Origin: a bacterium
GTDB taxonomy: Bacteria > Electryoneota > JAOADG01
DNA length: 22,742 bases
NCBI GenBank assembly: GCA_026417415.1
Contig: JAOADG010000017.1
Span: 1 to 22,742 of the forward strand
Direction: 5' to 3'
Part shown: positions 15,092 to 19,984 of the stretch, piece by piece
Position numbering within the stretch: position 1 is the stretch's first letter
Layout of the letters: every line of letters begins with the position of its first letter
Made by a program: the position numbers and the translations under genes
The notes under the pieces: generated by a model
Seen by the model: only the letters and a program-made list of their open reading frames with translations
Told to the model about the DNA's origin: nothing
The model's database searches: none

Positions 15092-17407
15092 ATGAAACCC
15101 TTTCGTCCTTTTCTTACTTTGTTAATTTTGGTGGTGATTTCCAGTACCTTTTGTAATGCAGCCCATTTGGATTCATTATTGAAAGTTCAACGTGTTCGTG
15201 CGGGTAAATTTGCTGATGCACTCTTTGCACCCTTGGATGCTTCCAACCCTGAGCGTTTGACCAGTAGTGAAAAAGAGGATTACCGTTTTCTACTTGCTTA
15301 TCTGCCATTATCCGATCTTGCTTCAATTACTGCCCAAGAGTTGATTAGTAACATACGCTTGGCACAACAAGCACGACGCGAATTTTCCTGGGGCAATCAA
15401 TATGATGAAAGTACCTACCGTCATTTTGTGCTTCCACATCGGATATCACAGGAACCGTATGTCCATGGTTGGCGCGAAAAATTTTTTCGTGAACTAAAAC
15501 CTCGCATTCAGCATCTTTCTATGTCTGAAGCCGCATTGGAAGTTAATCATTGGTGTTTAGAATATGTCACCTTTGTTCAAACGGATGCCCGCGATCAGGA
15601 CCCATTCACCACCATACGTTCCGGATTTGGACGTTGTGAAGAAGAGATGATTTTTACCATTGCTGCCTTACGGTCTGTAGGTATCCCTGCCAGACAATGC
15701 TTTACCCCTTATTGGGCAACCACAGACAATAACCATGCTTGGGTAGAGGCCTGGGCTGATGGAAAATGGAACTACTATGGTGCTTGTGAACCTGAACCAA
15801 TTTTGAATCAAGGGTGGTTTACGGAACGTGTAGCGCGTGCTTTTTTGGTGCTTAGTTCTGCTTATGGTGACTACGAAGGCAACGAACCCATTTATAAAAG
15901 AAATATCACCTCCACTTACATCAATTCCACTGCAGTTTATGGAAAAACGCGCAACCTTCATATTACCTTGGTTAACGAAGAAGGTGAACCGCTACCAAAG
16001 AAAACGGTAGTGCTTTCAATTATCAATTATGGTGGCTTAATGCCGGTGGCATCGGTAATCACCAACGATTCCGGAAAAGCAGAAATTACCTGTGGTTATG
16101 GGGATTGTTGGGTAAGTAGCGGCGATCAAAAAAATAGTGTGTTTCAATTCATAAAAGGGAATGAAACGCAAGTGACTTTGTTTTTGCATCCGACTCCTAA
16201 ACTTATGGAAGCCCAGCATTTTCTGTATGAACCACCTCCTAACCCAACGGAATTGAAAACGGTTGAAAAGGATTCGCTGTTCCGATGTAGAATGTCCGAG
16301 GCAGATACGCTCCGAAAAAACCGTGTTTGGACTATGTGGGCAGTGGAACAAGGAATTCAACTTTCAAGTAAAGATCCCATCCAACCGGATTCGCTTTTCT
16401 TTTCTACTTTTATTCTCGCTACAGAAAAACAAAAAGACCAGTACCAACGTTTTCAGGAATTGTTACGAAAATCTTATGGCAATTGGGGCAATCTCTTTCG
16501 TTACGTATTTGGATTTTATCCTCTGTACGAAGAAATCAAACGTAAATCCAAAAACCCAAAACAACCACAGGTGTATCTCCCACCTTTGGAAGAACCGATG
16601 CTATTGTTGGAATCACTGTCAGAAAAGGATTTGCGGGATTTTACCGTAGCGATGTTACAAGATCATTCGGTTCGTTTGGAAGCACTGACAGAATGGAAAA
16701 AGTACTGCCCTGACGGTTCTCAACCTGATTCTAATGCTGCACAACGGATAGTAGATGCAGTCATTTCACCACGAATTGATTTTGAACCCTCTTCAGCATG
16801 GCGTGGTGAATTAGAGCATTTGTTAAGAACACATCCCGAATTAAAGCAAACAAAAACGTTGATCAAATGGATAAAAAAAGAATTTGTGATTGATAAAACC
16901 TTGGATCGTTTGGCAGCACCTCTTACTCCCATTCAAGTATTGCATTTGAAACGTGGCAGTCCACGTGATTTAGAACGTTTGTTGGTTGCCATCAAGCGTA
17001 CCCAATTTGAAGCAGCACGTTTTCATCCTGTAACTGATCAACTGCAAATTTGGGAAAAATCACAATGGCGAACCATAGAACTCTTTCCTACGAAAACCAC
17101 GCCGAAAAAGTTCCGAATAGGCACTGTCCAACTCAGTGTTGCTTCCGATTCAGTTTCTCAACACGCAAAGTATTTTCAAGAATGGATGATTTCTCGGTGG
17201 TTCTACGAACGTACTCAACCGATGCAATTTGAGTTTCATCAAGAAGCCAAACTATTTACCCAACCTTTGGATTTGCCGGAAGGGTTGTATGTTTTGAGTT
17301 ACGGTCTTCGCAAACCTGATGGAGCGGTACCTGTTTCCTTGGTATGGTTTGAAGTGAATAGAAAACGACCGACAAAGTTACTTTTAGATCTTACTAAGCA
17401 TGAATGA
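15092..17407 (+). CDS. Secreted transglutaminase-like (papain-fold) protein
   Basis: This 771-residue protein from ATG at 15092 begins with a signal peptide (FLTLLILVVISSTFCNA). The transglutaminase-like core is clear: SGFGRCEEEMIFTIAALRSVGIPARQC with Cys182, NNHAWVEAW with His215, and GACEPEP with Glu233 in the third catalytic position. After it, about residues 285-365 look like a beta-sandwich domain (VNEEGEPLPKKTVVLSI, TNDSGKAEITC), like carboxypeptidase-regulatory folds. The remaining 400 residues are mostly helical and unassigned. Such proteins are often proteases or cross-linkers acting in the envelope. GGAAAG precedes this ATG; another in-frame ATG at 15071 lacks a Shine-Dalgarno. The stop overlaps the next start in ATGA. 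Confidence 0.8.
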   Translation: MKPFRPFLTLLILVVISSTFCNAAHLDSLLKVQRVRAGKFADALFAPLDASNPERLTSSEKEDYRFLLAYLPLSDLASITAQELISNIRLAQQARREFSWGNQYDESTYRHFVLPHRISQEPYVHGWREKFFRELKPRIQHLSMSEAALEVNHWCLEYVTFVQTDARDQDPFTTIRSGFGRCEEEMIFTIAALRSVGIPARQCFTPYWATTDNNHAWVEAWADGKWNYYGACEPEPILNQGWFTERVARAFLVLSSAYGDYEGNEPIYKRNITSTYINSTAVYGKTRNLHITLVNEEGEPLPKKTVVLSIINYGGLMPVASVITNDSGKAEITCGYGDCWVSSGDQKNSVFQFIKGNETQVTLFLHPTPKLMEAQHFLYEPPPNPTELKTVEKDSLFRCRMSEADTLRKNRVWTMWAVEQGIQLSSKDPIQPDSLFFSTFILATEKQKDQYQRFQELLRKSYGNWGNLFRYVFGFYPLYEEIKRKSKNPKQPQVYLPPLEEPMLLLESLSEKDLRDFTVAMLQDHSVRLEALTEWKKYCPDGSQPDSNAAQRIVDAVISPRIDFEPSSAWRGELEHLLRTHPELKQTKTLIKWIKKEFVIDKTLDRLAAPLTPIQVLHLKRGSPRDLERLLVAIKRTQFEAARFHPVTDQLQIWEKSQWRTIELFPTKTTPKKFRIGTVQLSVASDSVSQHAKYFQEWMISRWFYERTQPMQFEFHQEAKLFTQPLDLPEGLYVLSYGLRKPDGAVPVSLVWFEVNRKRPTKLLLDLTKHE

Positions 17408-18252
17408 AATTCTTAATGAGCGATTTGGATTTGAAAACTAATTCTACTACAAATTTAGAGAAAGATGTCAAAGTACCTACTTTGCATCAGTTGAAAGAAA
17501 TTTTCTTTCTTTCCTTTTTTTGGATATTTCTTTGTGAATTAATTCTTAGCGCCACTTCATTAAGCACAGGGTATAAAATGTTTTTTTTATCCATTTTATT
17601 ACCCTTACCAACGCTTGTCATTTTAGCCGTCCATTCGTATCCGATCGTGCTTACCTATCGTTTCCATTCTCCCGGCTGGAAACATTTGCTTTTGGCTATA
17701 CCCATCGGTTTAAGTGCCAGTATTGTGATTGACGGGATTGATCGGTTGTGGATCCAATGGAGTGGTTTAGAACAAGAGCATTTGCACAAACTTTATGAAA
17801 AATTACGTACCAATGATTGGTACGAATTCAATACCATTCTTTTTACAGCCGTATTTGTAGCCCCTTTTACGGAAGAGATGTTGTTTCGTGGCGTCTTACA
17901 AGGTACAATGGAATATAGAAAATCCATGCACCAAGCCATCACTTGGACCGCGATCATTTTTACTATCTTACATTTTAATCTGGAACAAATTGTATCGCTT
18001 TGGATGTTTGCTATTTTATTAAGTTTTATGGCTTGGCGTGTAGATTCCATTTTTCCTTCAATGATTGTGCATATGATCAACAATGGTTTATCCTTTTATG
18101 TATTACAATACCGTTTGGATGGTTCCTTGTTTGACGGATATTTACGTGATCAGATTGTTGCGCCGTTTTGGTTTATGGTGGCAACATTGCTTTTATCTAT
18201 CAGTGCTTGGTTCTATTTCAAATTTGATCATCCTTTGCAGGAAACAGTATGA
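17404..18252 (+). CDS. CPBP (CAAX/Abi) family intramembrane metalloprotease
   Basis: A 282-residue polytopic membrane protein. The three conserved blocks of the CPBP/Rce1-like family are present: APFTEEMLFRG with Glu157-Glu158 and Arg162, ILHF with His190, and HMINN with His223 and Asn227. The glutamates and histidines are the presumed catalytic residues. There are about seven to eight hydrophobic segments, and a hydrophilic N-terminus of about 30 residues. Bacterial members have been tied to bacteriocin immunity, peptide maturation or unknown processing; nothing here shows the substrate. The start ATG overlaps the transglutaminase-like stop (ATGA), implying translational coupling. A second ATG at 17416 is possible. 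Confidence 0.88.
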   Translation: MKFLMSDLDLKTNSTTNLEKDVKVPTLHQLKEIFFLSFFWIFLCELILSATSLSTGYKMFFLSILLPLPTLVILAVHSYPIVLTYRFHSPGWKHLLLAIPIGLSASIVIDGIDRLWIQWSGLEQEHLHKLYEKLRTNDWYEFNTILFTAVFVAPFTEEMLFRGVLQGTMEYRKSMHQAITWTAIIFTILHFNLEQIVSLWMFAILLSFMAWRVDSIFPSMIVHMINNGLSFYVLQYRLDGSLFDGYLRDQIVAPFWFMVATLLLSISAWFYFKFDHPLQETV

Positions 18253-18497
18253 AAAACCGTTCCATCCCATATGTCTTTAATCCAAAACGTGACCGCAACA
18301 TCAGACGGTTTATGAAACTAAAACGGTTCAGCACCATTCTATTTACTTTATGTGCTGCGTTTTTATTGACTACCTTCATTTTTGGAAGGCATGCCTCTGG
18401 TGGTTCAAATCTGATGTATATTGGGCTGATATTAAGTATTTTGACAGGAGCGTTTGTATTCATCGTCCATCGCAAACTCAAACAGCAGAAGCGTTAA
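18249..18497 (+). CDS. Two-TM small membrane protein
   Basis: An 82-residue protein with a basic N-terminus (KRDRNIRRFMKLKR) and two hydrophobic segments: about residues 28-46 (STILFTLCAAFLLTTFIFG) and 55-74 (MYIGLILSILTGAFVFIV). It ends with a basic tail (HRKLKQQKR). The charge pattern predicts both ends in the cytoplasm. I do not recognise the family. The start overlaps the CPBP stop in ATGA. Its last 148 nt overlap the long frame of the SpoIID-like gene. The second helix followed by a frame change could form a signal-anchor for that gene, so it may not be independent. Confidence 0.6.
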   Translation: MKNRSIPYVFNPKRDRNIRRFMKLKRFSTILFTLCAAFLLTTFIFGRHASGGSNLMYIGLILSILTGAFVFIVHRKLKQQKR

Positions 18498-19984
18498 CCG
18501 TTCGGATTGCTGTACTTCGGGAACAAACAGAAGTTACCCTTATCGTAGTAGAAGGGAGTTATCTGCTGTCCCAAAAACACAGTGAGCGGCGCATTCAAGC
18601 AGGCGAAAAACTCACCTTTGCTGGGACTGATTTTCACCGAAAAGCGTGGTTAAAACGAACGAACATACAGCAACCTACCACAAATTCAGACCTTCGTACA
18701 GGCATCACGGCTACGTTTCGCAATCCCGATGGTGAAATGGAAACGATTCACTCCCACAGATATTTTCAACTCACGGCTTCTGAACCACTATTTTCACCCG
18801 ATCCCCTTTTTACCCATGCACAATCCATCGCCCAATCTGAAAAAATTGGGAATACAATTGTGATACCTGATGAACGGCGTGCTGAATCGCCAGAAATTAC
18901 GTTGGGATGGACCGTCTTGGAAGCGCCCATCACTTTGTACCCAATACATGACAATAGTAAGATTGCTGTTTCAAACGTTCGAATCGGAATCGGGTTTCAT
19001 TGGGATCACCTTCAAACTTTAACCTATACTGGGATTCTTCATATAGAAAAACTCAATCGTGGTTTATGTGTAGTGGTAGAAATTCCCCTGGAAGAGTATT
19101 TAGCATCCGTGAACTCTTCGGAAATGCCTGCAGATTTACCACTTGAATTTATGAAAGCCCAAACGGTTGCTGCGCGCTCTTGGTTGTTGGCAAATCTGGG
19201 GACACATCATACCGGTGCACCTTTTGATATCTGTTCCGATGATCATTGTCAATGTTTTCACGGAAGCCAAAAACTTCAAGAAAAAAGTATTTTAGCAGTA
19301 GAATGTACAAGAAGCGAAATTTTAGTTTGTAACGATCAAATGAATGGATATACTCTGACCGATGCACGCTATGCCAAGACCTGTGGTGGACGTTTTGAGC
19401 CCGGCGAAGCCATATGGGGTGGACCGACTCATGGATTGGTGTACGGTTCTGAGCAATTGGAACAGGAACCGATTCGAAGCGAAAAAGATGCTTTTGATGT
19501 GCTAAAAGATAAAAACCAAAACGATTTTTGCAACCCTCGTATCAATATCTATCCGAACTCACTTCGTTATGCAGAACCTTATTACCGTTGGGAATTCCAT
19601 TGGGATGAAAGACAACTGTGTGCCTTTATTCAACGGAGTTTAGGGATCAGTTGGGATGGTTTAGATGCGGTGGAAATCGTTCAACGAGGTTTATCGGGTA
19701 GAATTCATTCAATTCGCCTTGGGTTTCAAAAAAAGTGGATTGACGTTTCAGGCGAACTTGCCATTAGACGTCTATTTTCCGATACTCATTTGCCAAGTTC
19801 CGCCTTTGTCATAGAACGATCGGGAACAACGTTCAGTTTGTATGGTGCTGGATGGGGTCATGGTGCAGGTTTGTGTCAAACGGGAGCGGCCGTACGTGCC
19901 ACTTTGGGACAAAATTATCAAGAGATTTTGAAAGCGTATTACCCAACTTCAATACTGGTCAAAGCAGAGCAATTGAACCGATGA
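18350..19984 (+). CDS. SpoIID/LytB-like protein; start uncertain
   Basis: The frame opens at ATG 18350, but recognisable family sequence begins only about residue 49 (LTVRIAVLREQTEVTL). Downstream are IPLEEYLASVNSSEMP (Glu258, catalytic-position glutamate), LEFMKAQTVAARSW (267-278), CSDDHCQCFHG (Cys-rich loop), and GAGWGHGAGLCQTGA near residue 500. SpoIID proteins are lytic transglycosylases that cut denuded peptidoglycan; LytB-like relatives act in cell-wall remodelling. The first 48 residues overlap the preceding small gene in the -1 frame and contain no signal peptide. There is no ATG, GTG or TTG between residue 2 and the domain. So either 18350 is real, or a non-canonical start or a frameshift from the small gene supplies the N-terminus. 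The stop overlaps the next start in ATGA. Confidence 0.8.
   Translation: MCCVFIDYLHFWKACLWWFKSDVYWADIKYFDRSVCIHRPSQTQTAEALTVRIAVLREQTEVTLIVVEGSYLLSQKHSERRIQAGEKLTFAGTDFHRKAWLKRTNIQQPTTNSDLRTGITATFRNPDGEMETIHSHRYFQLTASEPLFSPDPLFTHAQSIAQSEKIGNTIVIPDERRAESPEITLGWTVLEAPITLYPIHDNSKIAVSNVRIGIGFHWDHLQTLTYTGILHIEKLNRGLCVVVEIPLEEYLASVNSSEMPADLPLEFMKAQTVAARSWLLANLGTHHTGAPFDICSDDHCQCFHGSQKLQEKSILAVECTRSEILVCNDQMNGYTLTDARYAKTCGGRFEPGEAIWGGPTHGLVYGSEQLEQEPIRSEKDAFDVLKDKNQNDFCNPRINIYPNSLRYAEPYYRWEFHWDERQLCAFIQRSLGISWDGLDAVEIVQRGLSGRIHSIRLGFQKKWIDVSGELAIRRLFSDTHLPSSAFVIERSGTTFSLYGAGWGHGAGLCQTGAAVRATLGQNYQEILKAYYPTSILVKAEQLNR

Follow-up and report, generated by a model that had tools for sequence, protein, structure and literature searches.

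How a cell-wall-enzyme-like gene is translated when its reading frame holds no usual start codon where its conserved sequence begins is the question raised by a locus at positions 17404-19984 of the window, which here denotes the whole stretch of 22,742 nucleotides that was analysed, one entire contig (C15) of genome G000 (2.2 Mb over 40 contigs). Three + strand genes lie there in tandem, encoding a CPBP/Rce1-like protease, a protein with two transmembrane (TM) helices and a SpoIID/LytB-domain protein (Table 1). The first two genes share 4 nt (ATGA), and the SpoIID frame is -1 relative to the 82-aa ORF of the two-TM protein. This small protein finds zero matches in Pfam and in NCBIfam. Its homologue in the sister genome G001 is 33-34% identical (E 2.8e-10); at the other loci compared no homologue was found, so that among these the gene is confined to this family. 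The best explanation of the data presented below is that the SpoIID gene is intact, belongs to a clade without signal peptides and stands third and last in a CPBP - two-TM - SpoIID set. Most likely, it relies on an inefficient ATT, a type of start that is rare but has precedents, and neither a frameshift nor an indel is involved.

Table 1. Coordinates of the genes and candidate start signals at the SpoIID locus of the window.
Feature	Position	Strand	Basis or remark
CPBP/Rce1-like membrane protease gene, first of the set	17404..18252	+	ORF; Pfam PF02517, E 4.6e-17
82-aa protein, two predicted TM helices	18249..18497	+	ORF; stop TAA 18495-18497
ATG	18350..18352	+	sole usual in-frame upstream start; judged not to be the genuine start
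AGGAG, Shine-Dalgarno (SD) candidate	18446..18450	+	duplex -8.1 kcal/mol
ATT, proposed SpoIID start	18458..18460	+	7 nt after AGGAG; predicted product M-HRPSQTQTAEALTVRIAVLR...
SpoIID/LytB-domain protein without signal peptide	18458..19984	+	508 sense codons counted from the proposed ATT; stop 19982-19984
TTA at the position of the G001 TTG start	18494..18496	+	overlaps stop TAA as TTAA (G001: TTGA); weak SD, -0.7 kcal/mol

The initial annotation had let the SpoIID domain begin at about 18494. This holds for sequence conservation, whose onset lies at ~18494-18497, and not for the Pfam domain, which is found further in (PF08486, residues 237-326 of the 544-aa ORF; E 1e-20, 74.6 bits vs a cut-off of 23). 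NCBIfam TIGR02669 is matched as well (135.8 vs a cut-off of 83.3), while the equivalog cut-off of TIGR02870, stage II sporulation protein D sensu stricto, is missed (101 bits vs 234.75). In the alignment of 23 sequences S221, E222 and M223 are invariant; the glutamate of this S-E-M motif is taken as catalytic, a role established for B. subtilis SpoIID. All family-invariant residues are retained in the window protein, and its frame is free of stops and gaps. Profile searches match the SpoIID structures 4rwr (E 8.6e-32), 5i1t and 5txu, and a structure model computed from the 23-sequence alignment reaches a pLDDT of 77.7 and a pTM of 0.81. In the model of the product from 18458, confidence is very low for residues 1-9, and residues 14-23 form the first strand, directly after the TTA codon; the predicted fold is complete from either start, 18458 or 18494. 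With the SpoIID/LytB peptidoglycan hydrolases of these PDB entries the window protein shares the domain matches, the SEM motif and a GWGHG..CQ motif; unlike them, it has a long extra N-terminal region, a DHCQC motif and neither signal peptide nor TM anchor.

A scan of the SpoIID frame from the upstream stop at 18290 to the conserved start at ~18494 bore out the earlier observation that only one ATG, GTG or TTG, the ATG at 18350, is present there; downstream, the next usual starts are ATG 18737 and then GTG 18860. To compare candidate starts, SD duplex energies were computed with the genome's own 16S tail (CACCUCCUUUC), giving +1.7 kcal/mol for ATG 18350, -8.1 kcal/mol for ATT 18458, -0.7 kcal/mol for TTA 18494 and -10.9 kcal/mol for CTG 18563, and codon usage was scored as coding versus the -1 frame of real genes. 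Initiation at ATG 18350, which would add 48 residues encoded within the two-TM gene, has in its favour that this is the sole usual start codon in frame. It has no SD, and codons 18353-18457 score as non-coding (-15.2 nats), the ATG lying 14 nats lower on the score curve; the N-terminus it would encode, described earlier as odd, is thereby borne out as such. We also sought this extension from a conserved ATG among the homologues and found it in none, so that 18350 is not rescued from that side either. We therefore reject this codon and regard its use as very unlikely. Provided that the assembled base at 18496 is correct, the SpoIID gene thus appears, from its sequence, to have no ATG, GTG or TTG at its true start.

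The sister genome G001 shows how the same gene begins in a relative. Searches of the family and class for closer relatives returned solely G000 and G001; viral contigs yielded no relatives, and phage records only distant SpoIID matches. The G001 SpoIID protein is 48-49% identical to the window protein, and gene order and -1 overlap are identical. There, the small gene ends in cgTTGA, and a TTG in the SpoIID frame overlaps the stop and encodes MNIRVAVLR, which aligns with LTVRIAVLR of the window; an AGGAG lies 5 nt upstream (duplex -6.6 kcal/mol). Since the -1 relation is real in both genomes, an indel in the window assembly is unnecessary as an explanation. The assembly indel considered in the initial annotation is accordingly dismissed: G001 shares the frame relation, and the site contains no homopolymer.

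Beyond the sister genome, homologues were aligned from across the phylum and from a few genomes outside it. Their start codon, ATG or in some of them GTG or TTG, precedes the strand VRIG(L)L by about 2-20 residues. A signal-like or TM-like hydrophobic stretch in the first 45 residues was found neither in the window protein nor in any of the 22 aligned homologues. In many of these homologues the next stop upstream is a few codons away from the start, so near that a missed signal peptide is excluded for them. A second SpoIID paralogue of the phylum does carry a hydrophobic N-terminus (L024, L026, L028). Lack of a signal peptide therefore characterises the clade and does not mark the window gene as defective. 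In many relatives the CPBP gene lies immediately 5' of SpoIID, whose start falls between -38 and +22 nt from the CPBP stop, with a frame relation that differs from case to case; among the relatives there are SpoIID genes whose first 1 to 38 nt are shared with the gene before them. Proximity to the upstream gene is hence conserved, whereas a frame relation suited to programmed frameshifting is not.

These comparisons bear directly on the proposal that SpoIID gains a membrane anchor, namely the second TM helix of the two-TM protein, through programmed -1 frameshifting. The initial annotation had favoured such a -1 change, joining the helix to TAEALTVRIAV. The frame relation permits it, and SpoIID enzymes usually act outside the membrane and require an anchor or a signal. 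However, G001 keeps the -1 relation and here has a TTG start and an SD of its own, homologues outside the family lack anchor and signal peptide alike, and the frame in which SpoIID follows the upstream gene differs among relatives. Moreover, inspection by eye of the region near the stop revealed no slippery heptamer of the form X XXY YYZ, as had been remarked before. We consider the fusion highly improbable.

The exact place of the sister's start codon deserves closer attention. At this position the window reads cgTTAAcc, with TTA as the codon, and the SD CAGGAG of G001 is here CAGCAG. That TTA occupies precisely the site of the sister's start codon hints at the change, or the misreading, of a single base. 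The true start may accordingly be a TTG at 18494-18496 that is read as TTA owing to one wrong or new base in the assembly or strain; a G-to-A error or polymorphism at 18496 would turn the site into an ordinary TTGA overlap, though with the SD still degraded. This fits the TTG of G001 at this very codon, in the same cgTTGA context and with AGGAG upstream, and the start of most homologues a few residues from the first strand. Furthermore, errors or unfixed variants do occur in the genome, as at least two apparent indels in poly-T runs show. Yet two changes are needed, as the SD is degraded too, the codons upstream of 18494 are coding-like, and the site shows neither a homopolymer nor a visible sign of error. 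On balance we hold a misread or altered TTG to be unlikely, while keeping it in serious consideration.

If the base is correct, TTA 18494 itself might be a genuine start: a ribosome that has ended translation at the overlapping TAA would begin anew there, hardly aided by an SD. TTA is, to our knowledge, absent from the start codons of NCBI table 11, and we know of no natural TTA start in bacteria. The position equals that of the sister's TTG start and forms a 4-nt stop-start overlap, TTAA, that would have evolved from TTGA. Re-initiation after termination at overlaps of this type is well documented (PMC10666635). The weak SD and the coding signal that continues upstream argue against it, and we judge a natural TTA start of this kind rather improbable.

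Upstream of this position, a different candidate emerges. Between 18434 and 18494, ATT 18458 is the only in-frame codon among ATT, ATC, ATA and CTG; the sister's start sits 36 nt downstream of its position. An SD duplex of -8.1 kcal/mol or lower is found at 13% of unambiguous ATG starts (n = 135), so that the ATT site beats about 87% of them, and at 2.9% of control positions inside genes (n = 4144). Where an open -1 frame exists at gene 3' ends, an AGGAG or GGAGG lies 4-10 nt before an ATT, ATC, ATA or CTG in 4 of 232 sampled genes. Codon usage marks the same place, with the 12 codons 18458-18493 scoring +3.7 nats as coding and a steep drop upstream of 18458. A score this high over 12 codons is equalled by 1 of 229 gene ends and by 3 of 2355 internal open -1 stretches; as the 12-codon test stretch was set by the ATT and chosen once that codon had been seen, the fair figure is that obtained with any extension length allowed, namely the same maximum in 8 of 229 gene ends (3.5%). 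SD and codon usage, which are roughly independent, both point to ATT 18458. Against it count the poor performance of ATT as a start codon, the sister's start 36 nt further on with TTA at that very site in the window, and the 40-nt overlap with the upstream gene, which exceeds the usual length in the sample. The region 18420-18520 folds less stably than shuffled sequences (z +1.6), and no control by an RNA hairpin is indicated at the start. Of the readings weighed here, an ATT start, listed in the initial annotation as one alternative, is the best supported, and we put translation from ATT 18458 behind AGGAG, within the two-TM gene, at about an even chance.

Finally, the start could have been lost in a decaying gene, or could lie further in, at CTG 18563 or 18566. 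The strongest SD-like stretch of all candidates, AGAAGGGAG, precedes CTG 18563, yet the frame is intact with every invariant residue kept, and a CTG start would delete the first two strands, which are conserved with G001. The two CTG codons are thus rejected, and both decay and an internal start seem to us very remote. As an observation in its own right, the occurrence of this stretch shortly before CTG CTG (18550-18568) is possibly due to chance and possibly reflects an internal start.

To see how the organism begins its other genes, we surveyed a 303-kb sample of the genome with 239 called genes. Usual starts were ATG in 177, TTG in 38 and GTG in 19 genes; SpoIID and four others had no usual start near the coding onset, in a lenient survey that undercounts unusual starts, as it accepted a start anywhere in the first 25 codons of a gene and left infC unflagged. 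In two of those four, the signal peptide is encoded in a different frame, beyond a poly-T run; the other two have an acceptable start slightly further off. On contig C38, the ORFs at 52619-50781 (-; L043) and 73599-73234 (-; L044) are separated near the 5' end from their likely, out-of-frame signal peptide by runs of T9 and T6, respectively, and may represent assembly indels or phase-variable genes. On the same contig, the only nearby usual start of an fmt-like gene (methionyl-tRNA formyltransferase; 107664-108653, +) is GTG 107697, 8 residues before an ATA at the normal beginning of such proteins.

The genome also encodes IF3. Its infC gene (L040, contig C5) has no ATG, GTG or TTG at the N-terminus; instead, GGAGG is followed after 7 nt by ATC AAG ACA (duplex -9.5 kcal/mol). 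Taken together, the infC pattern and the presence of IF3 make it probable that this organism initiates translation at AUH codons preceded by a strong SD. Both infC, which encodes IF3, and pcnB of E. coli start with AUU. The window SpoIID, with its proposed AUU start, would resemble these two genes, but it is neither an initiation factor nor a known dosage-sensitive regulator, and autoregulation is not implied. For infC of G000, the likely start is ATC (or ATT) behind GGAGG, as in other bacteria, infC starting with ATT in E. coli and ATC in Streptomyces (PMC5472188).

Further precedents come from other bacteria. In S. aureus, cvfC1 (AUU) and ccpN (AUA) combine non-canonical starts and a strong SD with low expression (PMC13009471). 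Both starts are conserved, and initiation profiling demonstrated them, whereas the SpoIID ATT, located inside the upstream gene, is proposed on sequence evidence. Streptomyces sigR has a conserved GTC start that was tested for IF3 control (PMC5472188). Like sigR, the window gene would have a true start without ATG, GTG or TTG and would be wrongly annotated to an upstream usual codon; its candidate codon, however, is ATT and not GTC.

With ATT 18458 as the preferred start, expression of the set might proceed as follows. Ribosomes would pass from the CPBP gene into the two-TM gene via their 4-nt overlap. Within the last 40 nt of the latter, AGGAG and ATT would set a weak SpoIID start, and ribosomes translating the two-TM gene would probably open the site and aid initiation. 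The N-terminus would consist of Met and about 12 disordered residues, followed by the conserved first strand. The predicted N-terminal peptide is MHRPSQTQTAEALTVR, or HRPSQTQTAEALTVR without Met, as opposed to MTVR for a start at 18494. For E. coli, the efficiency of ATT as a start is given as ~0.3% relative to ATG (Hecht et al. 2017, cited in PMC10666635). With such an efficiency the SpoIID protein is expected to be scarce, and, by analogy with known ATT genes, the start could confer sensitivity to IF3, should it have a regulatory role.

With regard to the family, the homologues L003-L036 and the window gene (18494-19984) make up a whole SpoIID/LytB clade, often paired with CPBP, that is signal-less despite belonging to a family that acts on peptidoglycan outside the membrane. 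This raises a separate question, namely the site of the enzyme's action. The apparent lack of a signal peptide is a feature of the whole SpoIID-like clade and not the result of a frameshift. If the ATT start is true, standard gene callers err at this locus, adding 36-48 false residues, and a cell-wall-enzyme-like gene of an uncultured lineage would join the short list of bacterial genes that start with AUU.
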